Below are positions 19,274-42,797 of a stretch of 64,000 bases of DNA, in pieces. The DNA comes from Lytechinus variegatus. Taxonomy: Eukaryota > Echinodermata > Echinoidea > Temnopleuroida > Toxopneustidae. The notes under the pieces were generated by a model. That model was not told the origin of the DNA and searched no databases. It worked only from the letters and a program-made list of their open reading frames with translations. The stretch is from positions 10,523,967-10,587,966 of the forward strand of contig NC_054748.1 of the NCBI RefSeq assembly GCF_018143015.1, in the 5' to 3' direction. Position 1 is the first letter of the stretch; each line of letters begins with the position of its first letter. A program made the position numbers and the translations under genes.

Positions 19274-19544
19274 ATGACGAACGACAAGGTCACACCATCC
19301 ACCACAACAGAAGAGGAATATCAGCCCTTTCCTGATCCCCTCCTTGGAACTGGACAAGATGTCACCCCTAATGGCGATGGAGGAGTCCTAAAGGCTATTA
19401 GGAAAGAGGGTGATACCATTGAGGAAGATCGCCCATTAAAGGGGGATAAAGTTTTTGTTCATTATATCGGTAGTCTCACAGACGGGACCTTGTTTGACTC
19501 GAGTCGGTCGAGGAATGAGAAGTTTTCTTTCACCTTAGGGAAAG
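19274..19544 (+). CDS. FKBP4: FKBP coding exon 1 (residues 1-90)
   Basis: Begins MTNDKVTPS and runs into FKBP domain 1 with [16 protein letters not shown], including catalytic-pocket Tyr64 and Phe74-Asp75. The donor is AAAG|GTTTGT, phase 1. It completes Gly91 with the next exon. Confidence 0.95.
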
Positions 19545-22500
19545 GTTTGTGACCAAGGATTCAGTTTTATCTGCATTGGATGAAAATTAACAAAAATTCA
19601 ATGAATTTAATTAGTATTAATGGACATTACAATGAATGTTCATCTTGGTTAGCCCATAGTGGTAGGGTTCTCATTATCCAGAATAGTAACTACTGCAAGG
19701 AAAAGTATAACTAGAAAGATTAAAATAAAATAATTTTTAAGATATACCATTTTCAGTATGGTGTATGCGGTACAGTTCCAGATGAAAAACGTTATAACTG
19801 TCATTGCTTGTTTACAATCTATGTAGGCAATGCCATGAAAACAACATAAAAACTTTTTAAATTGCAAAGTGGCAAATTTTTCTGAAATCCATTCATTTGC
19901 CTTGTCATTAATGTTCATTAATTTATGCTATTTTTAAGTATGAATCTAAATAGGACATTGATGATTGTTGCCAATTTGGAGATTGAAAGAATATTGATTT
20001 CATGAAATGAAAGTAATGAATGTTTACCCCAAAAATAATCATCAGCATTTATAGTAGTCTGCAGGCACAGAATCTGCATTATGCACTTGAAATTCTTTTA
20101 GACTGGTGAATGAAAAGTAAGTGTATTGCATGAAAGAAGAAACAGAAAGAAGGGGACAGGCACAAATACAAAAGTTAAAGCAGGAATGGGGTTCTGAGTC
20201 AAAAGTTTGATTATTTTCACCTGTGGAATATTTATTTTTTTTTCAATTTTCTTAATCTTCATCATTTTTCTTTTGCTTCTCTAGGCGAAGTAATTAAAGC
20301 ATGGGATATGGGTGTTGCTACAATGAGAAGAGGAGAGATAGCTGTATTCACATGCAAACCAGAATATGCCTACGGCAAAACAAGTAAGTGGGACTACGAA
20401 GTGATAAACTCATACAAGTTGGTTCGAGTCTAAATGTAAACGAAGCAGAAATTTAAATGTTGAAATGAATCCTTTTTTTTTATCTAAGTCAGTATTGATA
20501 CTGTCCAAGTCCACATTTTGTTTCATTTGTTCTTGAGTTAGCAGATCTGGGACCATTTTATATACAGGAAGATTTTTGTAAGTTATAATGCGTATGACTA
20601 TGACATGGATCTGATTTACCATCTCGGAACATATTCCATTTGTATTCAGAATCATTTTTAAATAAAAATGATCGTATGAATACTGATATTGTAATTGCGA
20701 TGGAAATGAAAGCAAATCCAGTTCAGATGATCTTTGTAGGTTTGCATGGTGGAGTTTATAACATGGAGAAGGTTTATGGTTCACCTTGTGTAATATGAAG
20801 AAGGGAAAAGAAATACAGACAGAAAAATTAAAATGGAAAGACAAGAAAGGATGCAAAAGAGAAATTAGGAACTCTTCTTATAAGTGAGTGAAGTCCTGAG
20901 AAGGTCTGTAAACCAGATGAGATGAGCTGAGTGTGGCTTGAGTAGTGATGGTTTGAGTAGTAGCAGGCTGCTTGAGTAGCGATGGTTTGAGTAGTAGCAG
21001 GCTGCTTGAGTAGTGATGGTTTGAGTAGTAGCAGGCTGCTTGAGTAGTGATGGTTTGAGTAGTAGCAGGCTGCTTGAGTAGCGATGGTTGAGTAGTAGCA
21101 GGCTGCTTGAGTAGTTGAGTAGTAGCAGGCTTCACTTTCAAGAAAAGAATACCTCTAATTTCTCTTTTGCATCCTTTCTTGTCTTTCCATTTAAATTTTT
21201 CTGCCTGTATTTCCTTTCCCTTCTTCATATTACACATGGTGAATGGTAAACCTCCACATTAAATCCAGTTTAATATAGTGAAACAGGATATAATGTAGCA
21301 ATCTGAATCCAGTTTCGGCTTTATTCCAATCACAAAGCAGACTTGTAATTTTAATACCTAAATGTAGAATTGCTCCGAACTTCAAATTCACTACCAGTCT
21401 TTGACCCACTATTACTTATAGGCCTAAAAAAACAGAGAACAATAGACTTGGTCCACTGATTTGTTGTTTGGATCTATTCTCTGTTTTTGGTGAATCAAAG
21501 ATAGCTGACTGGTAGTGTAAGACAAGTTTACTTGTTTGAACTTACAAATTTAATGGAAAATGCGATTGGTTAAATGTCATGTCACATTGGATCATATAGC
21601 GTGTTGTGGGCTTAACTCACAGGCAGCTCAGTGGTTAGTCTCCGGACTTTGAAACAGAGGGTCGTGGGTTCAAATCCCAGCCATGGCGTAGTTTCCTTCA
21701 GCAAGAAATTAATCCACATTGTGCTGCACTCAACCCAGGTTAGGTGAATGGGTCCGTGGCAGGAATTTATTCCTTGAAATACCAAGCGCGTAAAAACTGC
21801 TTGAGCTACAGCCAGGGTAATAATATCCAAGTCCTTTGGAAGCGTATAGAGACGTTATTTGTCATGCACTATACAAGAACTGACTATTATCATTATTATT
21901 ATGAGACACTCACCAATATCATGCAAAACTACACTGTAGTATTAGGAAAGTTGGTATGCAACTAATTACTTCTTATCTGTTTGACCAGGTAAAGGGAAAA
22001 TTCCAGCGAATTCTAGTTTGTATTCAACTGTAATTATTACTTCTTATCTGTTTGACCAGGTAAAGGGAAAATTCCAGCGAATTCTAGTTTGTATTCAACT
22101 CTAATTATTACTTCTTATCTGTTTGACCAGGTAAAGGGAAAATTCCAGCGAATTCTAGTTTGTATTCAACTGTAATTATTACTTCTTATCTGTTTGACCA
22201 GGTAAAGGGAAAATTCCAGCGAATTCTAGTTTGTATTCAACTGTAATTATTACTTCTTATCTGTTTGACCAGGTAAAGGGAAAATTCCAGCGAATTCTAG
22301 TTTGTATTCAACTGTAATTATTACTTCTTATCTGTTTGACCAGGTAAAGGGAAAATTCCAGCGAATTCTAGTTTGTATTCAACTGTAATTATTACTTCTT
22401 ATCTGTTTGACCAGGTAAAGGGAAAATTCCAGCGAATTCTAGTTTGTATTCAACTGTAATTATTATTTCTTATCTGTTTGACCAGGTAAAGGGAAAATTC

Positions 22501-25500
22501 CAGCGAATTCTAGTTTGTATTCAACTGTAATTATTACTTCTTATCTGTTTGACCAGGTAAAGGGAAAATTCCAGCGAATTCTAGTTTGTATTCAACTGTA
22601 ATTATTACTTTTTATCTGTTTGACCAGGTAAAGGGAAAATTCCAGCGAATTCTAGTTTGTATTCAACTGTAATTATTACTTCTTATCTGTTTGACCAGGT
22701 AAAGGGAAAATTCCAGCGAATTCTAGTTTGTATTCAACTGTAATTATTACTTCTTATCTGTTTGACCAGGTAAAGGGAAAATTCCAGCGAATTCTAGTTT
22801 GTATTCAACTGTAATTATTACTTCTTATCTGTTTGACCAGGTAAAGGGAAAATTCCAGCGAATTCTAGTTTGTATTCAACTGTAATTATTACTTCTTATC
22901 TGTTTGACCAGGTAAAGGGAAAATTCCAGCGAATTCTAGTTTGTATTCAACTGTAATTATTACTTCTTATCTGTTTGACCAGGTAAAGGGAAAATTCCAG
23001 CGAATTCTAGTTTGTATTCAACTGTAATTATTACTTCTTATCTGTTTGACCAGGTAAAAGGGAAAATTCCAGCGAATTCTAGTTTGTATTCAACTGTAAT
23101 TATTACTTATCTGTTTGACCAGGTAAAAGGGAAAATTCCAGCGAATTCTAGTTTGTATTCAACTGTAATTATTACTTCTTATCTGTTTGACCAGGTAAAG
23201 GGAAAATTCCAGCGAATTCTAGTTTGTATTCAACTGTAATTATTACTTCTTATCTGTTTGACCAGGTAAAGGGAAAATTCCAGCGAATTCTAGTTTGTAT
23301 TCAACTGTAATTATTACTTCTTATCTGTTTGACCAGGTAAAGGGAAAATTCCAGCGAATTCTAGTTTGTATTCAACTGTAATTATTATTTCTTATCTGTT
23401 TGACCAGGTAAAGGGAAAATTCCAGCGAATTCTAGTTTGTATTCAACTGTAATTATTACTTCTTATCTGTTTGACCAGGTAAAGGGAAAATTCCAGCGAA
23501 TTCTAGTTTGTATTCAACTGTAATTATTACTTCTTATCTGTTTGACCAGGTAAAGGGAAAATTCCAGCGAATTCTAGTTTTTATTCAACTGTAATTATTA
23601 CTTCTTATCTGTTTGACCAGGTAAAGGGAAAATTCCAGCGAATTCTAGTTTGTATTCAACTGTAATTATTACTTCTTATCTGTTTGACCAGGTAAAGGGA
23701 AAATTCCAGCGAATTCTAGTTTGTATTCAACTGTAATTATTACTTCTTATCTGTTTGACCAGGTAAAGGGAAAATTCCAGCGAATTCTAGTTTGTATTCA
23801 ACTGTAATTATTACTTCTTATCTGTTTGACCAGGTAAAGGGAAAATTCCAGCGAATTCTAGTTTGTATTCAACTGTAATTATTACTTCTTATCTGTTTGA
23901 CCAGGTAAAGGGAAAATTCCAGCGAATTCTAGTTTGTATTCAACTGTAATTATTACTTCTTATCTGTTTGACCAGGTAAAAGGGAAAATTCCAGCGAATT
24001 CTAGTTTGTATTCAACTGTAATTATTACTTATCTGTTTGACCAGGTAAAAGGGAAAATTCCAGCGAATTCTAGTTTGTATTCAACTGTAATTATTACTTC
24101 TTATCTGTTTGACCAGGTAAAGGGAAAATTCCAGCGAATTCTAGTTTGTATTCAACTGTAATTATTACTTCTTATCTGTTTGACCAGGTAAAGGGAAAAT
24201 TCCAGCGAATTCTAGTTTGTATTCAACTGTAATTATTACTTCTTATCTGTTTGACCAGGTAAAGGGAAAATTCCAGCGAATTCTAGTTTGTATTCAACTG
24301 TAATTATTACTTTTTATCTGTTTGACCCGGTAAAGGGAAAATTCCAGTGAATTCTAGTTTGTATGCAACTGTAATCATTATTTTTTATCCGTTTGACCAG
24401 GTAAAGGGAAATTTCCAGCGAATTCTAATTTGTACGCAACTGTAATCATTATTTTTTATCTGTTTGACCAGGTAAAGGGAAAATACCAGGGAATTCTAGT
24501 TTGTATGCAACTGTAATTAATTCTTTTTATCCGTTTGACCAGGTATTAAAAGGGAAATTTCCAGCGAATTCTAATTTGTATGCAACTGTAATCATTATTT
24601 TTTATCTGTTTGACCAGGTAAAGGGAAAATACCAGGGAATTCTAGTTTGTATGCAACTGTAATTATTACTTTTTATCTGTTTGACCAGGTAAAGGGAAAA
24701 TTCCAGCGAATTCTAGTTTGTATGCAACTGTAATTATTACTTTTTATCCGTTTGACCAGGTAAATGGAAATTTCCAGCGAATTCTAATTTGTATGCAACT
24801 GTAATCATTATTTTTTATCTGTTTGACCAGGTAAACGGAAAATACCAGGGAATTCTAGTTTGTATGCAACTGTAATTAATTCTTTTTATCCGTTTGACCA
24901 GGTATTTAAAGGGAAATTTCCAGCGAATTCTAATTTGTATGCAACTGTAATCATTATTTTTTATCTGTTTGACCAGGTAAAGGGAAAATACCAGCGAATT
25001 CTAGTTTGTATGCAACTGTAATTATTACTTTTTATCTGTTTGACCAGGTAAAGGGAAAATTCCAGCGAATTCTAGTTTGTATTCAACTGTAATTATTACT
25101 TTTTATCCGTTTGACCAGGTAAAGGGAAATTTCCAGCGAATTCTAATTTGTACGCAACTGTAATCATTATTTTTTATCTGTTTGACCAGGTAAACGGAAA
25201 ATACCAGGGAATTCTAGTTTGTATTCAACTGTAATTAATTCTTTTTATCCGTTTGACCAGGTATTAAATGGGAAATTTCCAGCGAATTCTAATTTGTATG
25301 CAACCGTAATCATTATTTTTTATCTGTTTGACCAGGTATTTAAAGGGAAATTTCCAGCGAATTCTAATTTGTATGCAACTGTAATTAATTCTTTTTATCC
25401 GTTTGACCAGGTATTTAAAGGGAAATTTCCAGCGAATTCTAATTTGTATGCAACTGTAATTATTACTTTTTATCTGTTTGACCAGGTAAAGGGAAAATAC

Positions 25501-28500
25501 CAGGGAATTCTAGTTTGTATGCAACTGTAATTAATTCTTTTTATCCGTTTGACCAGGTATTAAATGGGAAATTTCCAGCGAATTCTAATTTGTATGCAAC
25601 TGTAATCATTTTTTATCTGTTTGACCAGGTAAAGGGAAAATACCAGCGAATTCTAGTTTGTATGCAACTGTAATTAATTCTTTTTATCCGTTTGACCAGG
25701 TATTAAAAGGGAAATTTCCAGCGAATTCTAATTTGTATGCAACTGTAATCATTATTTTTTATCTGTTTGACCAGGTAAAGGGAAAATACCAGGGAATTCT
25801 AGTTTGTATGCAACTGTAATCAATTCTTTTTATCCGTTTGACCAGGTAAAGGCAAAAATTCAGCGAATTCTAGTTTGTATGCAATTGTAATTACTTTTTA
25901 TCTGTTTGACCAGGTAAAGGGAAAATTCCAGCGAATTCTACCTTGGTATTTGAAGTTGAGCTGTTTGACTGGAAAGGGGAGGATCTATCTGAGAATAACG
26001 ATGAAGGGATCGTTCGGCGTATTGTGACAGAAGGAGAAGGATATGATACTCCCAATGATGAGGCAGAGGTTGAAGGTAAGATAGATTGATAACAAAGATA
26101 CTACAATACTGGAGCGTTGTGGCCCAGTGGATTGAAATCAATAGAGCCCGTAATGAAACGCTTTGGAAGAGCGCCCTACAGCGTTGATTTATACCTTTAC
26201 CTTTGTCACATTTACTCTATGGCGGCCGTACGGCGAGTCGAAAACAGCCGTTTTAATATTTTTTGTACCAAATACATATAGGTGGTTTGAATAAAAATTA
26301 ATAAAACGGCTGTTTTCGACTAGCCGTACGGCCGCCGGAGAGCAAATGTGACCAAGATATAAGTAGACATTTTTATATTGCCATTTTTTAGTTGTGTACA
26401 AAACATATTAGGGAAATGATGGAGAGGTGAAGGAATAGGCGATTTTGATATAAGATTTTGGCAAATCAAATTTTAAAAATATATATATAAAGGAATTTAG
26501 AGGTTTCTGAGGAAATAAAGGTCTAATTATCCCTTGTGCCGGCCTTCTTCCCTCTCCCAAGCCCCCTCATTTTCCAACATGTTTTATACACAGCCGATGT
26601 GCTGTGCAAAGGTTTTATTACTCAACGCTAGTTGACGCCCTTCCCCATGAGCGAAATGGAGTGTTTCAAGAAATCACTGAAGTGTCAAGACTTCCCTTGT
26701 GGTGTCTTTTTTAATAATGATGATCAGATTATTTATGAATGCGCTTAAAACATACATTGTATGTATCTAGGCACTGACATATCCTGGGCCCTGTCTTTCT
26801 ATGGAAATCCATCTGTGTCATAATTTTTCTACAGGAAATTTGCAAAATGTCCTTTGTAAACAAAGGAAGACACACCAATTTGTCAAGAAATCAGTGACCT
26901 TATGGATATACATTCATATCTATACATTTTTTTGAACAAACATGCATTTCATCTGTTGACTTTGCTGGCTTTCCATAGTTGCAATTGATCCAATCAATCG
27001 TAACTCTTTTTAAGATATGGCCCAGGGCTCCGTAGCACAAAGGATTGCAATCAATTGCTGAATACCAAGACCATTGTTGCATGCGCACTCTGTTTAAAAT
27101 ACTGACCGGGAGCCAATCAGTGCAGCTCTTTCAATTTGCAATTTGCTTTGTGTTACGGAGCCCTAGTCATCGAATTCAGTCATTCCCACATACAATGTAT
27201 GCCAATGTGCCATTCTCTAGAGTGTATTCAAGCTAGTCGCTGATGAGGCTCACACAGTGCTGGACAAGTGTTTACCGATTTATTACACTGGTCGTCGGAT
27301 TCAGTCATTCCCGCACGCAAGGTATGCACATCCCTTCATTCCCTTGGGAGTATCCCAGCCAGTGGCCAATGAGGCACACGCAGTGCCTATGAATTTTCCA
27401 GTGGGGTCTATTAGCAGTGTGTTTGTTTCAACTAAGTCTCCATCCTCGGAAGGTGAGAACATGTAGAAGGAACGAATTAGAAGATTAATGTCTGTTGTTG
27501 TTTTTTTGTCTTTTCATTGATACCATAGCACACATCATTGGATCGTACGATGGCAGGGAATTTGAGAACAGAGAGGTGAAATACACAATCACAGAGGGTA
27601 AGGCATTAGCTATTTTGGGAGGCTGATAGTACCTTCATGAAGTTATAAAATCACTAGGGCTGCACGATATGATGAAAAAATAGTTATCAAAATTTCTAAT
27701 AAAAAGAAATCATAAAATATCCTTTAAAAAACAGACTTTCTGAAGTTTTTGGACATGCACTCATCAGAGTAAATCGCATAAAATAACTAGAACGCAAGAG
27801 CGAAACATTATATAATAGAGCTGTAAGTGACAATGGACGCTAAACGATGAGCTTTGATTGGCTGTCAAGGTAAACATTGTATGCTCATTAACAGGTGTAA
27901 ATGGAAGCAAAGCAACAAAGAAATCAATATGTATTAGGTGAAAGGTAGAGAGGACATTGTATCATTCAATGGAGACAGGCTGAATAGAATTTCCTCTGCA
28001 TTCTCACATAAAATTTTGATTTTCAAACTTGAAAATATGACTTGAAGGTGAAATTAAGTCTGAATCCAGCATCTTTTAATTGATGGTTCATTAATGTAAC
28101 GATAACTTCTATTGTTGACAAATACCAGAATGAAATAACATTTCAAGTACATGTACTGTACACAGGAACTTGAAAGAAATTGGATTCTGAAGGCATTCTC
28201 GAAAAGGTTAATAATGTATACTTACGTTTTTGGCTCACACTCAGAAAGTTAAATTGGATGTACGATCTAAAAAATATATCAGCGCCCTCGTTTTACAAAG
28301 AGCTACAATATATCCGAACAACCTCAGGTATATGAAAATCCACCACTGTCATAATTTTTCTTTAGGAAGTTGCACAATGTCCTTTGAAAACAGAAAGAAA
28401 AAGCATACTGAATTGTCAAGAAAATGATGATTATGTGAATATACATCATCTCTAGAAAATATTTTGTATAAACATGCATTTTAGATGTTGACGTTGCTGG

Positions 28501-31500
28501 CCTTCCATAGTTGTGGTTGATCAGACCAATAGCAACTCATTGTAAGAGAGGGCCTAGGAAGCACCTAAGAACCGGTGGAATTTGAACCAGTCACTCTGCT
28601 GTCTGCTGATCAGTGACTACCACCGAATTAGTAATACCCAAATTCCTCTGATTTAATTCTGACTTGCATCTTAAACATAAATTAAAGTAGTTGCAGTAAA
28701 CTCTGATTTCACGAGAAAGTCAGTAAAACCAGGCTTAATCGTCAGTATATCATCGAGGATCTAGATATAGTACAGTTACATAAACTGAACTTTGTGAAAT
28801 CTTGAAATCTATGCTGAAAAATGTTCGCACTGAAGATCACCAACACAGATAAGTGCACGTGGGACAGTGTATTATTATTGCTTTGAATGTCAGCCAGACG
28901 CTTAACCCGAATCCCATGCTCATTTGCTAATTTCTCAGCAATTACACAATTTCTTCAAGAATCCTTTGGCACATGTTTTTATTTATACAGACAGACACTT
29001 CGGTGGTCATTTCATTGGATTCTGTACGAACTCATTTTGATCGTCACCACAACTGGCATTTATCTTCTAACTTTTGTTTTCTTGATTAGGTAATGATGCA
29101 GGAATCGTGGAAGGTCTGGAAATCGCCATCAAGAGAATGAAGAAAGGAGAGAAGGCAAGGTTAAAGGTCAAATCTAAGTATGCGTACGGGTCAAAGGGCA
29201 ATGCAGAATACAACATTCCAGGAAATGCTGATGTAGCGTATGAAGTCACACTCACGAATTTTGAAAAGGTGAATCATCTTTTATTCAGTAGTGTATAGTA
29301 ATGAAATATATGATAACTCTTATTTACCCAGGGAGTCATTTCATCTATTTGCATGAAGCGCCGTAGTGTCGCGACGAATCCCACCATGGCTCAGCGTCCT
29401 TTGGCAAGGCCTCACTCCATTTGCCACTCTCACACAGGTGCTAATTGGGTACTTGTAGGGAACAACCGTCATTTTTAGCATTATTCTTGTTTGATTTTTC
29501 TCTGTTTATTCAAATGAACATTTTTCTGGTGTGGCTATGACCTTAACAGATTGAAAATAGCAGTTGATTTGATTAGATACATGTACATTTGATGCAATAT
29601 CAGAATTGAGTATAGTTCAAATCTGGCAATGACAGAGGCATAAATTTCAGCTGTGTGCAGTCAAAAATCTATCTAGTTTACAGTGACCTTGATTAGAGTG
29701 TGTGTGTTGAGGGGAATTCCCTGATATGACTAGGATTAATTCGAGATATGTAACCTTGTTTGTTACTACAGGCAAAGGAACCATGGGAGATGGATGTCAG
29801 TGAGAAGATTGAACAGTCTGAGATTGTCAAAGCCAAAGGAACTAATTATTTCAAGGTAGGCATACTTGATTACTTTCTTGTATTGATACATGGGTCTAAT
29901 CTTCTTGCCTTGTTAATCGGGGGTGCTGAAGTCTCCTTTAAAGATTTTTCTGGGTTGCTACATCAGAGATGCCAAGTTCAAAGACCAGCTATGCGTGAGA
30001 TTTTCTGTGAATCTGAGTGAGATCACAGACATTGTGTACAAAAGTATATGGGGATAGGCTGTGATAGTTGCGTGAGACAGAGATTTGAGGGGATGCACAA
30101 GAGTCCAAAATGCTTGAGTCTCACGCATAATGCGTGAGACTTGGTAGCTCTGCTACATGTATAATGCCATTAACAACACCTCCTGGAAATCATTTTGGTA
30201 TGCTAGAATATTAAAAATAGTCCAAAATTGCTTCTATATTGGAGCAAAAAAAACCTTTTTTTTCTTTGCTTGTCAATATTTTTTTTTTTAACATTTCATT
30301 TTTGACTGAAAACCCTTTTTTTTCTAAACCGGCAGACCCTCTTGAAAAATCATTCTCAGGTACTAATCCCACTTGCGCTGATCATACTTGATGTATCTTT
30401 TAAGTCTAATTTTCTACTTCACTAATCACACACAGTCTAATTCCATTCTGATCAATCCCACTTGGCCTATAACTAAACTCAGTCTAGCTCCTCTCTCTCT
30501 GATCTCTTGTGATGTATCCAAAATTAATCTTATTCTATGTGGATTGAACCGACATAGTCATATCTTGCCTGGTTTCATAAATTTATCTTATTTATATATT
30601 TTTTATCAACAGCAAGGAAAATACCAAGAGGCTATCAAGCAATGGAAGAAAATCATCACCTACCTGGAGACAGAAACCATCACAGACGAGGAGCAGAAGA
30701 AGAAGTCCGAGGCGATGCAGCTCGCGGCAAACCTCAACGTTGCCATGGCAGCGATCAAGGCTGAAGAGTTCTTTGAGGCTGTCAGTCATTGTAACAGGGT
30801 CAGTCCCATATATTCATTTTTATGTTGTTTGTTATGTCCCCGCAGACGAAGTCCGGAGAGGGCATTAAGTGTTTCCCCTGTCCATCCGTTCGTGCCCCCA
30901 CTTGGTTTCCGCGCAATAAGTCGAAAAATATTTTATGGATTTTAACATTTTTTAATTAGGCCAAAGTCAAAATACATGTGAAACAGCTGTTAAGAGGACT
31001 ACGAAAAGCATATATTTTTGCCATTCTGTCAACGTGTGACTATATGTAGCATTCTTTTGTTTTATTGTCCTTATTTCCCACCTCGAAACTAACGATAAGT
31101 CTCCATGGGCCTGTTCAGTGGTGCATAAAACATTTTCCCCAAAAAATTCTCTGGCAAATAAATAAAACTCTGAAGTAAACCAACATTACCAGAGTTTTTC
31201 TTTTATGCAACAGTCTGTAGGGAAGTTTAAAATTTTGAATTAGCTTGTATGAAAGAGTAATCCTCCTTCTTCATAACTGTCAAATTTGAATAGGAAAGAA
31301 GATACAAGAGATTCTGTGACAAGTTTTTTGCAGATTGCTTGAAAGTTTTACTGAGATTTCACAACAAGCACATCATTCTCATGCTTGAGTGAGCCCCTGA
31401 ACTGCAAGCATTGTTTTTTACCTTATTTTTGAAGCTCTTACTGAAATTCCTCTAAATTTAATAAAATGCTTGTGTGTTATCCATCATAAAAAATGCCTTT

Positions 31501-32739
31501 TTTTGCAAATGTCACTGGAAGAAGCAATGAAAGAATACTTGAAAACAAAAAAATTAAGTCTGAATTGATGAGAATTCTGAAATCTCCATATTGATTGACT
31601 TCTGCTAGGCTATTGAGCTGGAGTCCACCAGCGTGAAAGGCTACTTCCGTCGGGGACAGGCCTACATCCATCTTTCTGAGTTCGACAAGGCCAAGCTGGA
31701 CTTCCTTAAGGTTCTAGAGATGGAGCCGGAGAACAAAGCAGCCAAGAACCAGCTGACGGTCAGTAATCAGAAGCTCAAACAACACCATGAGAAGGAGAAG
31801 AAGATCTATGGAAACATGTTTCAACGGTTCGCTGATCAGGATAGAAGAGTAAGTGAATTAATGTTTTCACGTGTCCTTACATACTGTATAATACAGCTGT
31901 ATGGAACCATTTAAGTATGGGTTTTATTTTTTACACTACACCCGTCGGGATGTATTATTGTATCACGCTCGGTGTCCGTCCGTCTGTTAACTTTTCCTTG
32001 TAAATGCGGTAACTTCAGTTTGACTTGACCTAGGCTCATATTATTTGGTGTGTATGATACTAGCATGGATCCCAGGAAGCCTATCGATTTTGAGGTCAAA
32101 AGGTTAAAGGTCAAGATCACAGTGACATGTTTTCCTTTTACACTTCTGAATTCCTTGTTAATGCGATTACTTTAATTGAACTGAATCTAGGCTCATATAA
32201 TTTGGTGTGTATGATACTAGCATAAGTCCTAGCAATTCTATTGTTTTTTAGGTCAGAAGGTCAAAAGGTGAAGTCACCACCCTCCACTTTCTCGATTGAC
32301 CCACAACTCCATTTTCTGTGTTACAGGTGAGCGTATTATGTGCTCGCCTTAGTGACACTCCTGTTTATAAATAATGTCATGGAGGGCTTATGTGCTGATT
32401 TTTTGGTTTCGTCGTCAGCCGAGATCTCAAGGGGACATTATGTAGCTGAAAATACCCAGCCTGATAACAAGTAGAATTTAAGGTTCTATTCCAGCCATTA
32501 TTTTTATTTTCATTTTCTTTTTTTCTTCCATTCTGAAGGAAAAGCTTGCAAGGGAGAGAGCTCAGGGTGATTTAAAAGTTGGTGTCTTCAGTGATGCAGA
32601 AAAGAAAGGAGAGAAGACCACACCAGAGGAGGAGGAGGAGAACGGAGTCTCGTCGGAAGGGGGAGAACAAATGGAGGATGACACAAAGGAGAGTTTGTCA
32701 ACAGGGGATGAAGGGAAGGAACAAGCAATGGAAGCATGA
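19274..32739 (+). CDS. FKBP4: FKBP52/FKBP51-type peptidyl-prolyl isomerase and HSP90 co-chaperone (nine coding exons)
   Basis: The coding exons are 19274-19544, 20285-20383, 25914-26075, 27529-27597, 29090-29268, 29772-29855, 30613-30798, 31609-31848 and 32539-32739. All junctions are GT-AG and all phases match, giving 496 residues. FKBP domain 1 (about 35-141) keeps the active-site residues Tyr64, Phe74-Asp75, Trp97 and Tyr120, so prolyl isomerase activity is expected. FKBP domain 2 (about 152-257) has lost the pocket Trp (Leu in GLEIAI), as in the non-catalytic second domain of vertebrate FKBP52. Three TPR repeats (about 277-391) carry the clamp Lys280, Asn330, Lys360 and Arg364 that bind the HSP90 MEEVD tail. 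The C-terminal 100 residues are charged and acidic. The start is the ATG of MTNDKV, just after a 5' acceptor. Family members act in the cytosol in steroid-receptor/HSP90 complexes. One ancestral-type gene for the vertebrate FKBP4/FKBP5 pair is likely. Confidence 0.95.
19545..20284 (+). other. FKBP intron 1
   Basis: About 740 bp, AT-rich, ending in CTTTTGCTTCTCTAG. No gene or distinct repeat was recognised in it. Confidence 0.7.
20285..20383 (+). CDS. FKBP4: FKBP coding exon 2 (residues 91-123)
   Basis: Encodes [18 protein letters not shown] and PEYAYGKT, with pocket Trp97 and Tyr120. The donor is ACAA|GTAAGT, phase 1. It joins exon 3 to make Ser124. Confidence 0.95.
20748..21255. repeat. 34-bp minisatellite between ~120-bp inverted arms
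   Basis: Bases 20938-21130 hold about six units of a 34-bp repeat (GAGTAGTGATGGTTTGAGTA followed by GTAGCAGGCTGCTT). On each side lie inverted arms (about 20748-20880 and 21130-21255) sharing, on the plus strand at left, GAAGAAGGGAAA and AAAGACAAGAAAGGATGCAA. The whole would fold as a large stem-loop in intron 2 RNA. It is probably a DNA element whose centre has expanded. Confidence 0.7.
21428..21490. repeat. Small hairpin in FKBP intron 2
   Basis: AAAAACAGAGAACAATAGA and its near-complement TCTATTCTCTGTTTTT are separated by about 25 bp. No function is assigned. Confidence 0.5.
21612..21903 (+). mobile_element. tRNA-derived SINE, head A with tail 2
   Basis: The tRNA-like head has GCTCAGTGGTTAGTCTCCGG (A box region) and GGGTTCAAATCCC (B box). 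The shared body reads TTTCCTTCAGCAAGAAATTA and CACATTGTGCTGCACTCAAC. The tail contains CCAAGTCCTTTGGAAGCG and an ATTATTATT end. It lies in FKBP intron 2, sense to the gene. Confidence 0.8.
21962..25913 (+). repeat. 71-bp minisatellite made of copies of the FKBP exon-3 splice acceptor
   Basis: Hand counting of the AG|GT junctions gives 55 copies from 21988 to 25845 plus the genuine junction at 25913/25914. The unit is TAATTATTACTTCTTATCTG then TTTGACCAG|GTAAAGGGAAA then ATTCCAGCGAATTCTAG and TTTGTATTCAACTG. In each unit 44 bp match the end of intron 2 and 27 bp match the start of exon 3 (coding SKGKIPANS). Most units are 71 bp. Some are 75 bp, with GTATTAAA or GTATTTAAA replacing GTAAA. The distal units (21962-24290) are almost identical and the exon-proximal ones (24300-25910) are diverged. 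One copy (24329) has lost its acceptor AG. Confidence 0.97.
25914..26075 (+). CDS. FKBP4: FKBP coding exon 3 (residues 124-177)
   Basis: Finishes FKBP domain 1 ([20 protein letters not shown]) and begins domain 2 ([20 protein letters not shown]). Its acceptor TTTGACCAG and first 27 bp are the template of the 71-bp array upstream. The true exon departs from the unit at CCTTGGTATTTG. The donor is GAAG|GTAAG. Confidence 0.95.
26110..26200 (+). mobile_element. SINE head A fragment
   Basis: GGAGCGTTGTGGCCCAGTGG matches the SINE head copies at 51669 and 58193. Homology then fades. It lies in FKBP intron 3. Confidence 0.6.
26212..26353. mobile_element. Palindromic MITE in FKBP intron 3
   Basis: Inverted arms of about 55 bp share GTCACATTTACTCTATGGCG / GCCGGAGAGCAAATGTGAC and AAAACAGCCGTTTTAAT around a 30-bp centre. 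It is too short to encode anything, and its superfamily was not determined. Confidence 0.75.
26354..27022 (+). other. FKBP intron 3, unassigned part
   Basis: AT-rich intron sequence with no gene. The phrase CTTTGTAAACAAAGGAAGAC (26851) recurs in similar form at 28380 in intron 4, together with 'catgcattt(c/t)a(t/g)atgttgac', so the two introns share a diverged dispersed repeat. Confidence 0.4.
27023..27166. mobile_element. Palindromic MITE with AGGGCTCCGTA ends
   Basis: The left end AGGGCTCCGTAGCACAAAGG is matched by the inverted right end CTTTGTGTTACGGAGCCCT. Inner inverted matches follow around GATTGCAA / TTGCAATTTGC. A second copy enters the window at 63911. No coding capacity. Confidence 0.75.
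27529..27597 (+). CDS. FKBP4: FKBP coding exon 4 (residues 178-200)
   Basis: Short exon encoding [19 protein letters not shown] in FKBP domain 2. Domain-1 pocket Tyr and Asp are replaced here by Ile and Glu, fitting a non-catalytic domain. Acceptor CATTGATACCATAG; donor GAGG|GTAAGG. Confidence 0.93.
27598..28680 (+). other. FKBP intron 4, left part
   Basis: AT-rich with no exon recognised. It holds the diverged repeat shared with intron 3 near 28340-28520. Confidence 0.5.
28686..29069 (+). mobile_element. Single half-unit of the TTAA palindrome family
   Basis: It runs parallel to the left arm of the 14722-15503 palindrome: TAGTTGCAGTAAAC, AAACCAGGCTTAAT, GAAGATCACCAACACAGATA, CAGCAATTACACAATTTC and a GGCATTTATCTT end. 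Its right end lies only about 20 bp from the splice acceptor of FKBP exon 5, so the polypyrimidine tract follows directly on the element. Confidence 0.8.
29090..29268 (+). CDS. FKBP4: FKBP coding exon 5 (residues 201-260)
   Basis: Completes FKBP domain 2: [52 protein letters not shown]. The usual pocket Trp is Leu. Acceptor TTTTCTTGATTAG; donor GAAAAG|GTGAAT. Confidence 0.95.
29269..29771 (+). other. FKBP intron 5
   Basis: About 500 bp of AT-rich intron sequence. 'TTATTTACCCAGGGAGTCATTTC' near 29311 resembles the SINE tail 1 found at 51930 and 63600, so a decayed SINE end may be present. No gene. Confidence 0.45.
29772..29855 (+). CDS. FKBP4: FKBP coding exon 6 (residues 261-288)
   Basis: Encodes [20 protein letters not shown] and AKGTNYFK, the linker helix and start of TPR 1, including clamp Lys280. 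Phase 0 on both sides. Confidence 0.95.
29856..30612 (+). other. FKBP intron 6
   Basis: About 760 bp. TGCGTGAGACT-type phrases near 29990-30150 repeat in both orientations. Nothing else was recognised. Confidence 0.45.
30613..30798 (+). CDS. FKBP4: FKBP coding exon 7 (residues 289-350)
   Basis: Encodes [20 protein letters not shown], then a charged insert, and [20 protein letters not shown] of TPR 1-2, including clamp Asn330. Donor AACAGG|GTCAGT. Confidence 0.95.
30799..31608 (+). other. FKBP intron 7
   Basis: 810 bp. The start (30830-30920) carries a CCCCGCAGACGAAGTCCGG phrase that looks like the end of a dispersed repeat. No gene. Confidence 0.45.
31609..31848 (+). CDS. FKBP4: FKBP coding exon 8 (residues 351-430)
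   Basis: Encodes [20 protein letters not shown] of TPR 3, with clamp Lys360 and Arg364, then [20 protein letters not shown] and the [19 protein letters not shown] helix. Phase 0 on both sides. Confidence 0.95.
31849..32538 (+). repeat. FKBP intron 8 with two units of a dispersed repeat
   Basis: Two copies of a unit of about 130 bp lie at 31990-32110 and 32150-32260. Both contain CTAGGCTCATAT(T/A)ATTTGGTG and TGTATGATACTAGCAT, then a 'gaggtcaaaaggt' end. CCGTCGGGATGTATTATTG (31943) and a final GTGAGCGTATTATGTGCTCG look like the ends of the larger dispersed element. Confidence 0.55.
32539..32739 (+). CDS. FKBP4: FKBP coding exon 9 (residues 431-496) and stop
   Basis: Encodes [19 protein letters not shown], an acidic run with five consecutive Glu, and the C-terminus EGKEQAMEA before TGA. 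The charged tail matches the region after the TPRs in FKBP52, where calmodulin binding has been mapped in vertebrates. Binding here is not shown. Confidence 0.93.
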   Translation, partial: EKLARERAQGDLKVGVFSDAEKKGEKTTPEEEEENGVSSEGGEQMEDDTKESLSTGDEGKEQAMEA

Positions 32740-32740
32740 T

Positions 32741-33160
32741 TGAATGTCAAGATTTGAAAGACTTGATTAATGATAAGAATTGGTTGTTGGAGGGAACAAA
32801 CAATCAGTGAAGCGGGGTTGAATGTCAAGATTTGAAAGACTTTATTAAAGATACAAATTGGTTGTTGGAGGGAACAAACAATCAGCGAAGCGTGGTTGAA
32901 TGTCAAGATTTGAAAGACTTTATTAAAAGATACAAATTGGTTGATGGAGGGAACGAACAATCGGCGAAGAGTGGTGGAATATCAGGATTTGAAAGACTTG
33001 TTAAACATGAGAGTTCATTGATGGAGGAAACTCAAGAATTAGGGAAGCACGATTGCCTGGATTTCTTTAAACCTAAGAGTTTGATGACGAGGAGAACGAA
33101 CAATCAGCAAAGCGTGGTTGAATGTCAGGATTTGAAAAGACTTGTGAACAAACACTTCTC
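32741..33160 (+). repeat. 78-bp tandem repeat immediately after the FKBP stop codon
   Basis: About five units, the last ones diverged, contain TTGAATGTCAAGATTTGAAA, GACTTTATTAAAGATACAAA and GTTGGAGGGAACAAACAATC. The first unit begins two bases after the stop, so the array forms the start of the 3' UTR. The 78-bp period is a multiple of three and one frame is open through most of it. No protein evidence supports translation. Confidence 0.8.
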
Positions 33161-36411: not shown

Positions 36412-38235
36412 ATGATTCTAGAAGATTATCATTTAGAACAAAACATTGATTGTAAATATTATGTACCCAGTGAATATGATCCCCAAGGAGATCAATCACA
36501 CTCACATTTTCTAAGTTTCTTACACTGCAATGCAAGAAGTCTGTCTAAAAACTATGATAACTTTAATATGCTCTTATCTTCATTACGATTCAATTTCTCA
36601 ATTATAGGCATTTCAGAAACTTGGCTAAATAATAAATCTCCTAACCTTTTTACACTTGAAGGTTACAAAGAAATTAGGAAAGACAGACAGAATGGTAGAG
36701 GAGGAGGGCTTCTCATGTATATCTCAAATTCTCTATCATTTAAGCCCCGGAATGATCTTTCATTCCAGGGTGAATCAGCTGAGAGTTTATGTATTGAGGT
36801 TGACCTTCCCAAAGAAAAGAATTTCATTGTGTGTGTGGTGTATAGACCACCTAATACAGATGTGGTCACATTTCTGGATGACCTAGAGTTAATGATGTCA
36901 ACTGTCAATTATTCCGATAAATCCGTTTGTGTAATGGGAGATTTCAATATTGATGTACTTTGCAACAGTCCAAATTCAGTCCGATTTCGAAATATTCTTA
37001 ACTCGAATGCATTTCATGCTACAATTGATAAACCTACCAGAATAAGTGATCATTCATCTTCATTATTAGATAATATTTTTGTAAAGAATATCAAAGGCCA
37101 TTCTCAGTCTGGCCTATTTTACTCAGAAATCTCTGATCACCTGCCTGTGTTTTGCATACTTAATGCTTACCAGTCAAATGGTAACTTCCCAAGGAGGCGT
37201 GATATGAAACGAAAGATTACCGATGAAAAAGTAGCTTGCCTTAATGCTGATTTAATTTCAGAAGACTGGGAGGATGTTCTCAGTAGTGATGATGTTGAGG
37301 AAGCTTTTGAAATATTCTGGAAAAAGTTCTATTATTATTTTGATAAACATATTCCATACATAAAATCAGTTGATAAGAAAAAAGGGAAACGGCCTTGGAT
37401 TACTGCTGGTATACTCCAATCTATAAAAAAGAGAAATCGTTTGTATAAAAGAAGTATCAAGAAACCATCCCCTGATAGTATTGACAAATACAGAAAATAC
37501 CGCAACAAACTTACATCGATTATACGTTGCTCTCGAAAATTGTTTTACTCTAAGAAATTTGAAAAGGCTAAAGGCAATATGTCTTCAACTTGGAAGGTTG
37601 TAAAAGATATTTTATGCAAACAGGAGAAAAGTAAAATCCTAGAGAAAATTGTGATTGAGGATAAAGAATTGACTTCTGCAGAAGATATTGCTAATGCATT
37701 TAATGTGTATTTTGCCAGTGTTGGCGAAAATCAAGCCAAAACAATAATTGGGAACGGGTGCAATTATAGAAATTTTCTTCATGAGCCATCTACAGTATCT
37801 ATTTTCCTCAGACCGACTTGCAGTGCTGAAATTTTCAATATAGTCAGTTCGCTTAAAGCTAGTCACTCTTGTGGACATGATGAAATTAGCACAGTTTTAT
37901 TGAAACAAATTATTAATTCAATAGTGACACCAATTGTTTACATTTGTAATATCTCACTCTTAACAGGAGTGTTTCCTTCTTCTTTCAAACTAGCCAAGGT
38001 GATCCCAGTTCACAAAAAGAATGATGTAAATATTGTTTCAAACTATAGACCTATCTCCATATTGCCCACATTTTCTAAAGTTCTGGAGAGGATTGTGTAT
38101 AATAGGCTATATGACTTCTTGGATACACACAAGTCTCTAAATCCTGAACAATATGGATTTCGGCAGTCACATTCTACTGATCTTGCCCTGTTAAAATTTT
38201 ATGATCATGTTTCCAGTGCTCTTGCAGCTGGTGAA
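36412..38235 (+). CDS. LINE ORF2, endonuclease and N-terminal reverse transcriptase part
   Basis: About 608 codons. The N-terminal 230 residues are an AP-like endonuclease: LHCNARSLSKNYDNF, GISETWLNN, GGGLLMYISN, VVYRPPNTD, MGDFNIDVL and the catalytic SDHLPVFC. A linker follows, then reverse transcriptase begins: LTGVFPSSFKLAKVIPVHKK, NYRPISILPTFSKVLERIVY and EQYGFRQSHST. The frame stops being LINE sequence at the GTGAA target site of the inserted LTR element. Classification within the CR1/Jockey group (Rex1, Daphne or Crack-like) is not resolved. Confidence 0.9.
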
Positions 38236-38440
38236 TGGTTTGAACTTAGGTTATATAAATCAAAAGTCCAGTAGGCAGTTCTTTAAACGTATATACAACA
38301 GACATTTATTAGTTGAGATGCAACAACAATGATCACTACTGCGTCATCTTGGTAGCAGCCATAACTTTCTCCATGCAAGTAGTCACGTGTAATAACAAAG
38401 TATAGTCTACGCTTGCAGACCTTTATCAGTTATCACCACA
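38236..38440 (-). repeat. LTR of the Ty3/Gypsy element (3' LTR)
   Basis: 205 bp, almost identical to 43278-43482, with TG...CA ends. Confidence 0.93.
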
Positions 38441-38882
38441 CCTCCCTTTCTTTAAAGAGGTTTATATACACATATATAATACTTCTTAAACTACAGAGTG
38501 ACAGGGTGGACTACCTGTACACTTACGACAGTACTAGGGGATTATTCTGCCCCTTATAGCTGAAGTACTGTCGCTGTCAAATATTTTAACATGCAACATT
38601 ACAGTTCATATATATTTCATTTTTGCTGTTTGTATGATGCGACAATTCGTTGAACCGGTAGAGACTTCTGTTGAGTTGAGTTTTGTGATAGCGATAAATT
38701 CAATCCCGTATTGCTGATTAACTTTAACATGCAAATTTATATCATGCACATGCAATCATGCAGTTATCATGGGGTTGTATTAGAGTTCAAACCATTTACA
38801 GTTTCAAAGTTATTTTTGAACTCATGTGGCTATTTACAAAACGAAACGCGAAAGTTTTTCTGTTTAGTTCGCTTTCCTCTAT

Positions 38883-41800
38883 TTACAAGTTTAAACGATC
38901 TGGCGGTTTAACGACTCGTCCGCTTCTGGTTGTTCGGGATGGTGACGACGATGCGCGAACATCAGATGCTGGTTCCGCTTCTGCGCTGTCATCTAGCTCG
39001 AAGTCATCCTGTGTTGGTAATGGAATAGACTCGGCTTGGTGTCTGGGATCTGGCCTGAGGTGACGTCTGTTTCTGCGACGTATCTCGCCTGTGGCTGTTT
39101 CGATTTGGTATGATCTGTTATGATTATTGACAGATTTTATGATACCATGTTGTGACCAGGTATTAGTTTTCATGTCTTGGAGTATCACATGATCTCCAGG
39201 TTTTAGCTTTGGCAAGTCATGAGCATGTTTATCGAATCGCTCTTTTTGTTTCACCTTCTGCTCATCCTTTCTTCCCCTCACAGATTTAGTATCAATCTGT
39301 TGGTTATTGAGCAAAGTATCAAGCATGGGAAGGTTTGACCTAATCTGACGATTGTACAGAAGTTCTGCTGGAGATTTTCCGCATGCTATTGGTGAACTTC
39401 GATAGACTTGTAAAGCTCTGTGGATATCTTGTCCACTGTGTTGTGACTTCAGTATGAGATTTTTGACAATCTTCACAGCATTTTCTGCGAGGCCATTTGA
39501 TTGTGGATAATGTGGACTCGATGTGGTATGGTGAAAATCCCATTCTTTTGCAAAGCTTTTGAATTCTTGGCTTGCAAATTGAGGACCATTATCCGACATC
39601 AGTTCACATGGTGTACCATGACGAGCAAATATTGCTTTCATGTGATTAATCACGGCCTTGCTTGTAGTTGAAGTCAAAGTACATACTTCAATGAATTGTG
39701 AGTAGTAGTCAACGACGACCATATATTCTCTTTTGTTCAAAGTGAATAGATCTACGGCAATTTTTTCCCAAGGACGATTAGGCACTGCATGAGGATTTAG
39801 GCTTTCAGCCTGTTGTTTTGGTTTGTACATTAGGCATGAAGTACAATTTTGGACCATTTCAGTGATGTCTGCATTGATTCTTGGCCAATAGATTACTTCC
39901 CTAGCACGTTTCTTACATTTCTCAATGCCTAAGTGACCTTCGTGTACTTGGTTTAGTATGTATTGTCTCATGGAAGTTGGAATTACTATTTTAGAACCTT
40001 TGAATATGATTCCATCTGCTTCAGAGAGTTCACTTCGAATGTTCCAGTACTGTTTTATTCTAGCTGGACATTGTTGCTTACTTTCTGGCCAACCATTTCT
40101 GATGGTGGCTAGCAACTCTTGAAGCTCTACATCTTTTTTGGTCTCTTCAACAATTTCTTGTCTTTTGTTTGATGTTACTGGCATGGCTTGTACTATCATA
40201 TCTACATAGACTCTGATATCTTCTTCAGTTTCAACATTCAATTCTGCTTTTGGATCTACTGCTCGTGACAGTGTATCGGCAGTGAACATGTACTTTCCAG
40301 GTGTATATGACACTTTGAGATCATATCTCTGTACTCTGATTAGTAATCTTTGAATGCGTAAAGGACAATCTGCCAATGACTTAACAAACAATGGGATAAG
40401 TGGCTTGTGATCTGTTTCAACTTCTATCTTTTGACCATAGATATATTGATGAAATTTTTCACATCCGTAAGTGATAGCTAAGAGTTCTTTTTCTATCTGA
40501 GCGTAACGTGTTTCTGCATCAGTCATAGCTCTTGATGCGTAAGCTATTGGATGCCAATTTTGTTCATGTTGCTGTAGGAGAACTGCTCCTAGTCCATTTT
40601 TTGAAGCATCAGCTGATATCTTTGTGGGTTTTGTGCAGTCATAGAAATGAAGCACTGGTTGACTCATTAGAGCTTCTTTCAGTTCGCACCATGCTTTTTC
40701 TTGTTCATTTTCCCACATCCACTCTACTTTCTTGTCAAGCAAAATACGTAGAGGTGCTGACCTTGTTGATAGGTTTGGAATGAATTTTGCTTGGTAGTTT
40801 ATCATCCCCAAGAACCTTTGTATGTCCTGTTTACAGGTTGGTCTTGCCATGTTTCTGATGGCAGCCACCTTGTTAGGATCTGGTCTGACTCCATCTTGGC
40901 TGATCAAGTCACCAATGAAAGTCATCTGGTTCACATTGAACTCACACTTGTCTCGATTGAGTTTCAGGTTTGATTTTTGTGCGATGTCTAGAACTATTCT
41001 CAGACGATCGTCATGCTCTTCTTGAGTGCTTCCCCATACCACTATGTCATCCATCATGGTATTGACACCAGGTATATCTACGAACAAGTTATGTATTATC
41101 TTGTGAAATACTTCAGGAGCACTGCAGATACCAAAAGGTAGTCTCAAGAATCTATATCTTCCGTACGGAGTGATAAATGTACAAAGCTTGGAACTATCTT
41201 CATCTAGTTGGATTTGCCAAAAACCACTTGATGCATCTAATTTACTGAAATACTTGGCTCCAGCAAACTGAGAGGTTATTTCAGCTCTAGAAGGCAATTT
41301 ATAGTGTTCTCGTTTGATTGCTCGATTAAGATCACGCGGATCTAGACAGACTCTGAGTTGACCATTCTTTTTCTTGACTACAACAAGAGAAGACACCCAA
41401 TCTGTCGGTTCATCAACCTGTTTGATTACATCCATGTTTTCCATCTTATCTAGTTCCTCTTTTAGTTTCTTTTGAAGTGGAAATGGAACCTTGCGACATG
41501 CATGTTGAACTGGTTGTGCATTGTCTTTCAATGTAATGTGATGTTTGCCTGGAAGACATCCTAATCCTACAAATACATTGTCATAATCTTGCACTACAGT
41601 TTTGCCTGTTTTTATCTCTGTTTGTTTATCAACATGATATACGCGTTTTACTAGATACAAGTCTTCACTCGTTCTGAGACCTAGCAATGGTTGACGATTT
41701 CCAGGAATGATGAAACATTGAACACTGTGTTTAATTCCTTTGTACTCCATTTGGACATAACAACGACCTTTTACTGGAATGTTAGTCTCGTAGTAACCTG

Positions 41801-42797
41801 TTAACTTCACTTTGGCTTTTTGTAGTTTTGGTTTCGGTTTCAATTTGTGATAGATTGTTTCAGGGAGAGTGTTAGCTTGAGCTCCAGTATCTATCTTGAA
41901 CTCAACTAGCTCATTATTGACTCTCAAATTGACTTTCCACTCTTCTTTTGATTCATGTTCCTGTGAATCAACTGAACAAATCATGAAACCATCTGAATCT
42001 ACCTTCAAGTGTTGCAATTCATTGACTTTTGCTACTGGGGTACGACAACACTTAGCAAAATGATTTTGCTTACCGCACTTTTTACATGTTTTACCTTGTG
42101 CAGGACATTTTTCTTTGGTATGTCTATTACCACATCTTGTACATGTTTTATTGTTAGTACGATCTTGAGGTTTTGTTTGTCTTGTTTGGTTTGACTTTTT
42201 ACCAGAAGATTTCTTATTCTTGCTGAGAGAATCAACCGGAATTGAGGCATTTTCCCCGGTGGAACTCAACGCTTGGGCCTGCGTTCGAGTTTGTTCAGCA
42301 ACCCGACAAACTTGCAACGTTTTATCCAATGTGAGATCATCAAGCCTCAACAAATGCTCTCTTAGACCATCATCTAAGATACCACAGATAATTCTGTCCC
42401 GTATAAGACTCTCTTTCAACGAAGAAAACTCACACGACTGTGCACGACTTCGCAATTCAGTTGCATACTGATCAACACTCTCATGCTCTAATTGTGATCT
42501 TGTGAAAAATCTATGTCTCTCATACGTTAGATTACGTTTTGGCATGCAATATTCCTCAAATTTGTCCAACACTTTCTCAAGCTTCATGCTCTCATCCTCG
42601 GCAAATACAAATGTATTATACAATTCCAAGGCAGCATCACCAATTACGTGTAGAAGCATTGATGTTTGTGACTTGTCATCTTTTTCTGACATTCCTGAGG
42701 CAACATTGTATAGAGTGAATTTTTGTTTGAATCTTTTCCAATTCTCGGAAATATTTCCCTTTAAGTCAAGTGGAGGAGGTTGACTTAGATTTGTCAT
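38883..42797 (-). CDS. Ty3/Gypsy Gag-Pol polyprotein
   Basis: One frame of 1304 codons. The order of parts is gag-like region, CCHC zinc knuckles (CTRCGNRHTKEKCP, CKKCGKQNHFAKCC), aspartic protease (KIDTGAQAN), reverse transcriptase (LDPRDLNRAIKRE), RNase H, integrase zinc-binding and catalytic core, and a C-terminal charged tail. The pol order protease-RT-RNase H-integrase places it in Ty3/Gypsy. The clade (Mag/SURL-like is possible) is not determined. Confidence 0.93.
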   Translation of the reverse strand: MTNLSQPPPLDLKGNISENWKRFKQKFTLYNVASGMSEKDDKSQTSMLLHVIGDAALELYNTFVFAEDESMKLEKVLDKFEEYCMPKRNLTYERHRFFTRSQLEHESVDQYATELRSRAQSCEFSSLKESLIRDRIICGILDDGLREHLLRLDDLTLDKTLQVCRVAEQTRTQAQALSSTGENASIPVDSLSKNKKSSGKKSNQTRQTKPQDRTNNKTCTRCGNRHTKEKCPAQGKTCKKCGKQNHFAKCCRTPVAKVNELQHLKVDSDGFMICSVDSQEHESKEEWKVNLRVNNELVEFKIDTGAQANTLPETIYHKLKPKPKLQKAKVKLTGYYETNIPVKGRCYVQMEYKGIKHSVQCFIIPGNRQPLLGLRTSEDLYLVKRVYHVDKQTEIKTGKTVVQDYDNVFVGLGCLPGKHHITLKDNAQPVQHACRKVPFPLQKKLKEELDKMENMDVIKQVDEPTDWVSSLVVVKKKNGQLRVCLDPRDLNRAIKREHYKLPSRAEITSQFAGAKYFSKLDASSGFWQIQLDEDSSKLCTFITPYGRYRFLRLPFGICSAPEVFHKIIHNLFVDIPGVNTMMDDIVVWGSTQEEHDDRLRIVLDIAQKSNLKLNRDKCEFNVNQMTFIGDLISQDGVRPDPNKVAAIRNMARPTCKQDIQRFLGMINYQAKFIPNLSTRSAPLRILLDKKVEWMWENEQEKAWCELKEALMSQPVLHFYDCTKPTKISADASKNGLGAVLLQQHEQNWHPIAYASRAMTDAETRYAQIEKELLAITYGCEKFHQYIYGQKIEVETDHKPLIPLFVKSLADCPLRIQRLLIRVQRYDLKVSYTPGKYMFTADTLSRAVDPKAELNVETEEDIRVYVDMIVQAMPVTSNKRQEIVEETKKDVELQELLATIRNGWPESKQQCPARIKQYWNIRSELSEADGIIFKGSKIVIPTSMRQYILNQVHEGHLGIEKCKKRAREVIYWPRINADITEMVQNCTSCLMYKPKQQAESLNPHAVPNRPWEKIAVDLFTLNKREYMVVVDYYSQFIEVCTLTSTTSKAVINHMKAIFARHGTPCELMSDNGPQFASQEFKSFAKEWDFHHTTSSPHYPQSNGLAENAVKIVKNLILKSQHSGQDIHRALQVYRSSPIACGKSPAELLYNRQIRSNLPMLDTLLNNQQIDTKSVRGRKDEQKVKQKERFDKHAHDLPKLKPGDHVILQDMKTNTWSQHGIIKSVNNHNRSYQIETATGEIRRRNRRHLRPDPRHQAESIPLPTQDDFELDDSAEAEPASDVRASSSPSRTTRSGRVVKPPDRLNL

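Follow-up and report, generated by a model that had tools for sequence, protein, structure and literature searches.

How does a spliceosome find the start of an exon that is preceded by dozens of copies of its own 3' splice site? This question is raised by an FKBP4/FKBP52-like gene of the sea urchin Lytechinus variegatus, encoded on the plus strand of a 64,000-nucleotide (nt) stretch of contig NC_054748.1 (the window; all positions are counted from its first letter). Most of intron 2 of this gene is taken up by a 71-bp minisatellite that spans the boundary between intron 2 and exon 3 and places 55 additional copies of that boundary upstream of the true acceptor. The most likely answer, to which a probability of roughly 0.74 can be assigned, is that the array is a minisatellite of the type described as "mirages" in an otherwise intact gene, with the last acceptor being used and the products of wrong choices being degraded. 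Splicing would then join exon 2 to the last copy and the gene would stay functional, for which amphioxus mirages provide the precedent. What would set this copy apart is that no other acceptor is attached to the exon 3 body with its strong donor.

The gene comprises nine coding exons (19274-32739) and encodes a protein of 496 amino acids (aa), whose best match in the PDB is FKBP4 (8ffv; E-value 1.1e-136; residues 12-453). In Pfam, FKBP_C is found in two stretches of the gene product, and TPR families, including TPR_2 and TPR_1, score above the cut-off. This domain order, two predicted FKBP domains followed by TPR repeats, is that of an FKBP4/FKBP52-like co-chaperone.

Organization of the array

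The array was reported by Tandem Repeats Finder at 21965-25940 (period 71, 55.7 copies, 93% matches, score 6635), and its edges were placed at 21950 and 25940. The earlier note on this DNA had located it correctly, but its range of 21962-25948 was up to 12 bases off. Splitting the array at TTTGACC[N]GGTA, the motif used to delimit the units, resulted in 56 junctions from 21989 to 25914, i.e., the true acceptor at 25914 and 55 upstream junctions, the number of extra copies that had been claimed. No further occurrence of this motif was found on the plus strand of the window, the only strand searched. The parts of the array and the adjoining exons are as follows.

20285-20383, plus strand: coding exon 2, which must join exon 3; donor CAA|GTAAGT, phase 1
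20384-25913, plus strand: intron 2, 5,530 nt, with the array (21950-25913) making up ~72% of its length
21950-21988, plus strand: leading intron-derived fragment, without bases common to most internal copies; followed by copy 1
21989-24329, plus strand: homogeneous block, units 1-33; mean pairwise identity 98.6%, 8 distinct unit types
24330-24331, plus strand: junction 34, CG|GT, the sole upstream junction without AG
24330-25913, plus strand: diverged block, units 34-55; mean pairwise identity 89.1%, 19 types among 22 units
25914-25940, plus strand: start of exon 3 (27 nt), the portion represented in the repeat unit
25914-26075, plus strand: coding exon 3, 162 nt; true acceptor at 25914, donor AAG|GTAAGA; skippable in frame

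The common 71-bp unit consists of 44 nt from the end of intron 2 and the first 27 nt of exon 3, and the last copy continues into exon 3 proper. This composition, as given in the earlier note, does not extend to unit 55, which adjoins the true acceptor, is 68 bp long, and includes only 41 intron-derived nt. Unit lengths are otherwise 71 bp (43 of the 55 units), 75 bp (six), 72 bp (three), or 69 bp (two). The AG|GT junction is kept at 54 of the 55 upstream positions (55 of 56 with the true acceptor counted), in agreement with the earlier count, and the exception is junction 34. In 31 of the 55 copies, the exon-derived part matches the first 27 nt of exon 3 exactly, a fraction that differs sharply between the two blocks (29/33 in units 1-33 versus 2/22 in units 34-55). 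Altogether, the array contains 27 distinct unit types. A 4-bp insertion near the unit start, which lowers the donor-like score discussed below, is present in 7 of the 22 diverged units (units 37, 42, 47, 48, 49, 51, and 53). The leading fragment and unit 55 both lack bases that are present in most copies, and the former is likely to be close to the ancestral intron end.

Two features of mirages are thus seen here: the repeat unit spans an intron/exon boundary, and many of its copies retain the splice signal. One exact 28-base pattern of the unit had no matching stretches in viral_contigs, as expected for an animal gene.

Splice-site strength of the repeat units

All splice scores given here come from approximate acceptor and donor matrices. 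By these scores, the ladder of near-identical acceptors described in the earlier note is real. The true acceptor of exon 3 scores 9.0, a value that is equalled or exceeded by 44 of the 55 decoys, and the weakest of the gene's true acceptors scores 3.8, a level attained by 54 of the 55 decoys versus 66 of the gene's 652 other AGs. Taken as a donor (CAG|GTAAAG), the junction has a score of 8.0, which is also the median for the array and falls within the range of the eight true donors of the gene (4.1 to 10.3). Only ~0.6% of the 532 other GTs in the gene match this median donor score, and 52 of the 56 junctions score at least as high as the weakest of the true donors. Because acceptor-like and donor-like junctions follow each other ~71 nt apart, each unit represents a possible 71-nt pseudo-exon. 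Judged by scores, i.e., as predicted sites only, each unit bears splice-site-like sequence in the manner of the variable number tandem repeat (VNTR) in the human ABCA7 gene. Minimum-energy folding was applied to one, two, and three units, with no shuffled control, and provided nothing to build on.

The donor-like junctions were overlooked in the earlier note, as were the in-frame skipping of exon 3 and the precedents that go by the name of mirages. As predicted sites, the donor-like junctions make correct splicing harder to explain than was assumed there. Several points therefore have to be set against the use of the last acceptor in a harmless array. Most decoys equal the true acceptor by score and a donor-like site follows each unit, so that simple exon definition does not explain why the decoys would be ignored. 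The diverged block comprises units 34-55, whereas in the amphioxus globin gene BflGb6 only single odd copies were described at the edges. Finally, the use of the last acceptor is something that we infer, and the copy number comes from one assembled haplotype. On the other side stand the intact 496-aa gene model that surrounds the array and the AG|GT kept in 54 of the 55 copies.

The form of the junctions (AG|GT at 55 of 56) brings up recursive splicing, whereby AG|GTAAAG would serve first as an acceptor and then as a new donor, with the second step undoing a wrong choice. Exon 3 does start with GTAAAG, a partial donor motif of the kind that defines recursive-splicing exons (RS-exons), as described in PMC6224609. 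After joining to exon 2, the re-formed donor, CAA|GTAAAG, would score 4.2. This is on a par with the gene's weakest true donor (4.1) but below both the own donor of exon 2 (8.8) and the donor of the next unit (8.0), so that competition should favor keeping the unit rather than removing it. Furthermore, the copies with GTATTA and GTATTT score just -0.1 and 1.4, respectively. As a rescue mechanism, recursive splicing appears weak by these scores and is very improbable as an explanation of the array.

Predicted products of wrong splice choices

The earlier note expected most upstream acceptors to shift the frame and lead to a stop within about two units. This was right in direction: by length, 37 of the 55 upstream acceptors shift the frame, and read-through from a decoy acceptor to the exon 3 donor meets a premature stop in all 55 cases (the CG junction counted), in 47 of them within 142 nt of the acceptor. 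However, 18 acceptors keep the frame, although they stop early too, and the furthest stop is 341 nt away. In the 55 read-through products, the stop precedes the last junction by 806 nt or more. Transcripts with a stop far upstream of the last junction are generally subject to nonsense-mediated decay, so these products can be expected to be degraded. Inclusion of single units as cassettes has a similar outcome: 44 of them shift the frame, so that a stop is met in exon 3, and the other 11, with lengths divisible by three, contain a stop themselves. No full-length product was obtained from any of the computed cassette combinations, be they contiguous (0 of 1,540), double (0 of 1,485), or triple (0 of 26,235). 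Under the preferred explanation, the read-through and cassette products, all computed to carry premature stops, would be removed by decay.

The idea that the stops are a designed safeguard was rejected on the basis of 200 arrays with shuffled unit interiors, which stop just as surely (0 of 11,000 full-length read-through products and 0 of 11,000 full-length single-unit cassettes). The stops stem from the A+T-rich sequence and are no evidence of function. Complete skipping of exon 3 removes 162 nt and leaves an open frame of 442 aa.

Conservation of the junction

Variable columns (27 of the 71 in the unit, insertion columns uncounted) are found in both the exon-derived part (8 of 27) and the intron-derived part (19 of 44). 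A 12-nt window at the junction contains a single variable column, but 8 of the 71 circular windows of this width are as invariant. For widths of 8, 10, 12, 14, and 16 nt, the numbers of windows as invariant as the junction are 22, 16, 8, 14, and 6 of 71, respectively. Selection on the junction is therefore unsupported, as its conservation is matched by many other stretches of the unit.

These observations bear on the suggestion of the earlier note that the copy number could tune FKBP expression. The sequence itself offers no support for such tuning, given the unexceptional conservation of the junction and the stops that appear in shuffled arrays as well. The association reported for the ABCA7 VNTR keeps it from being far-fetched, and by analogy with this human donor-side case, an effect on the amount of the FKBP protein is possible. 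In its strongest form, the suggestion amounts to a length-dependent splicing brake: a 55-unit ladder of decoy exons would hold splicing factors and thereby set FKBP dosage by array length. This alternative is unlikely, if far from fanciful. The units are indeed flanked by acceptor-like and donor-like sites, with nearly all decoys reaching the weakest true acceptor and with a median donor score that is rare elsewhere in the gene, and loss of exon 3 does leave an open frame. In human, the length of the 25-bp ABCA7 VNTR tracks the skipping of exon 19 and is inversely related to expression (PMC5954066), and decoy exons have been described as promoting intron retention in OGT and other genes (PMC12017769). 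At the same time, inclusion of the ABCA7 unit itself did not change with VNTR length, exon 19 skipping being the only splicing change described (PMC5954066), and regular splicing was reported to be undisturbed by the mirages of amphioxus (PMC3087553). Neither the conservation of the junction, equalled by 6 to 22 of the 71 windows at five widths, nor the premature stops, equally certain in shuffled arrays, adds to its credit. The brake would predict that longer arrays lead to more intron 2 retention, decay, or in-frame exon 3 skipping and to less full-length FKBP, an outcome that we would consider equally doubtful.

Growth and history of the array

The homogeneous block contains a trace of its own expansion, and a short sequence match is found at the points where the founding duplication would have been joined.

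22660-23387, plus strand: 728-bp stretch, an exact repeat of which is found 922 bp (13 units) downstream, at 23582-24309
25943-25949 (exon 3) and 21951-21957 (intron, left edge of the array), plus strand: the word TTGGTAT, which sits at both presumed join points of the founding duplication

The 728-bp match, with the two stretches 13 units apart, is indicative of a duplication of several units inside the array and of exchange in blocks. Within units 1-33, pairs of identical units make up 70% of all pairs at the 13-unit offset versus 43 to 58% at the remaining offsets between 1 and 14. As units 9, 23, and 33 bear changes that are absent from their 13-unit partners, the second stretch is more than a simple duplication introduced during assembly.

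This bears on the explanation that the array, or its copy number, was produced by mis-assembly. Near-identical 71-bp units are difficult to assemble, and one mirage in the amphioxus draft genome appears aberrantly assembled, according to the authors of PMC3087553. In this case, though, there are 27 unit types, 19 of them among the 22 diverged units, in addition to the partner-lacking changes in units 9, 23, and 33. Such diversity means that a simple false join does not give this array, although the number of copies given by the assembly could be inaccurate. An artefact would come as a considerable surprise.

From the unit composition, the near-identity of the units, and the block copy, all of them directly visible, we infer a history that could have started with a single short duplication of the intron 2 end and the first 27 nt of exon 3, with TTGGTAT perhaps helping. 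As homology for this founding event, the word is suggestive only: in a control, 225 of 20,000 pairs of places that were drawn at random from the gene, with the array as part of the draw, shared an equally long and equally placed word. Unequal exchange or slippage may then have expanded the array to 55 extra copies, and a recent burst would have left units 1-33 nearly identical and the 13-unit block copied. Copy number can be expected to differ between individuals.

The host gene and other repeats in the window

The remaining coding exons of the FKBP4-like gene model are listed below. Four combinations of the exon 8 end and the exon 9 start are possible, three of which encode the same protein; the GT..AG one was chosen.

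19274-19544, plus strand: coding exon 1; donor AAG|GTTTGT, phase 1
27529-27597, 29090-29268, and 29772-29855, plus strand: coding exons 4, 5, and 6
30613-30798, 31609-31848, and 32539-32739, plus strand: coding exons 7, 8, and 9

Comparison of the window with all 18 ends of the coding exons, i.e., 16 splice ends plus the start and stop codons, resulted in 56 matches for the start of exon 3 and 6 for the end of exon 9 at the stop codon (self-matches included). The starts of exons 4, 5, 7, and 9 each had one further match of 20 to 35 nt, either far off or on the opposite strand, which were taken as chance; the other 12 ends matched only themselves within the window. The start of exon 5 (29090) has a donor-like GTAATG right after the AG, comparable to GTAAAG at the start of exon 3.

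A 78-bp tandem repeat at 32731-33055 begins at the last codons and the stop codon (GAAGCATGA) and is a second array across a functional boundary of this gene. At the corresponding position, its next two copies read GAAGCGGGG and GAAGCGTGG.

Intron 2 also contains an apparent fold-back element (20780-21262), recognized by eye, with two inverted similar arms of ~100 bp that enclose 5.3 copies of a 34-bp tandem repeat (20936-21115). A tRNA-like stretch at 21620-21900 (GTTCAAATCCC), shortly before the array, was noticed on reading the sequence and suggests a short interspersed element (SINE). Neither ARAGORN nor Rfam reported a tRNA at 21620-21900, and the single match in the whole window to Rfam at gathering thresholds was a tRNA at 63740-63811.

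Downstream of the gene, a long interspersed element (LINE)-like frame with endonuclease and reverse transcriptase (36412-38271, plus strand) and a further reverse transcriptase frame (43425-44591, plus strand) surround a 1,315-residue open frame of a long terminal repeat (LTR) retroelement on the minus strand (38886-42830). A 19-residue translated stretch is found at both 38383 and 43425, and the whole region (36412-44591) resembles a LINE into which an LTR element has been inserted. Another array, at 45376-46597, has a 69-bp period and 17.8 copies. As 69 is a multiple of three, a 308-residue plus-strand frame stays open through it. The Pfam family EGF_STAB1-2 passes the cut-off for this frame as a whole but for no single stretch of it, so that the match is probably an effect of the repeat.

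Comparison with known systems

Minisatellites spanning an intron/exon boundary have been described as mirages in the amphioxus genes Adh3 and the globins BflGb6 and BflGb9 (PMC3087553). In BflGb6, the unit of 150 to 160 bp combines the 3' end of an intron with the 5' part of exon 2, and the two haplotypes have 6 and 3 units. AG/GT is found in many but not all copies, RT-PCR suggested regular splicing, and concerted evolution was described inside the array, with the edge copies being distinct (PMC3087553). The sea urchin array similarly represents an acceptor-side boundary repeat with AG/GT in many copies. It has a homogenised stretch (units 1-33, 98.6%), and both the leading fragment and unit 55 at its edges are odd, but the diverged block (units 34-55) is broader than an edge. 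Unlike the amphioxus mirages, it has 55 extra units, mostly of 71 bp, in an FKBP4-like gene, which makes it much longer than the globin mirages of 3 and 6 units; the units of the Adh3 mirage range from 10 to 72 bp, as cited in PMC3087553. In the literature on boundary-spanning repeats that was searched, mostly outside subscription papers, no report was found of so many acceptor copies, nor of any in an FKBP gene. The locus is thus a long new case of a rarely described, yet already known kind of repeat.

Duplications of this kind have also been linked to new introns. In a potato RdRp gene, one tandem duplication of a segment made of a 3' intron end and a 5' exon start created a new intron (PMC4974935), and internal tandem repeats at human exon-intron boundaries may give novel introns (PMC2812944). 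The duplicated segment in potato is, as here, an intron end with the start of the next exon. The potato copy is single and used for splicing, in contrast to the 55 copies in the sea urchin gene, whose coding frame gives no sign of their use. Still, the array constitutes a store of AG|GT units and may be a source of new exons or introns.

The decoy exons in the retained introns of OGT, SF3B1, and ARGLU1 promote intron retention, their function having been tested in OGT (PMC12017769). The sea urchin units resemble them as intronic acceptor-donor pairs that are candidate binders of splicing factors without yielding a product. Those decoys are single cryptic exons, whereas here there is an array of putative sites.

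The closest human parallel is the VNTR in intron 18 of ABCA7, whose 25-bp unit includes the exon 18 donor and is present in 12 to ~427 copies; a frame shift results when one unit is included, and in-frame skipping of exon 19 rises with VNTR length (PMC5954066). Both arrays have a splice signal in each unit, a frame shift caused by one unit, and a neighboring exon that can be skipped in frame. The ABCA7 array is on the donor side, with splicing and expression measured, while the sea urchin array is on the acceptor side and has predicted sites. If splicing of the FKBP gene is normal, the spliceosome ignores ~54 acceptors of about equal local strength and finds the last one, which would make the locus a clean test of how the exon body and its coupled donor guide the choice of acceptor. 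If it is not, array length would be a dosage switch for a co-chaperone gene. In the latter, less likely case of a brake, the array would be the acceptor-side mirror of the ABCA7 VNTR and a natural titration series for the choice among near-identical acceptors.

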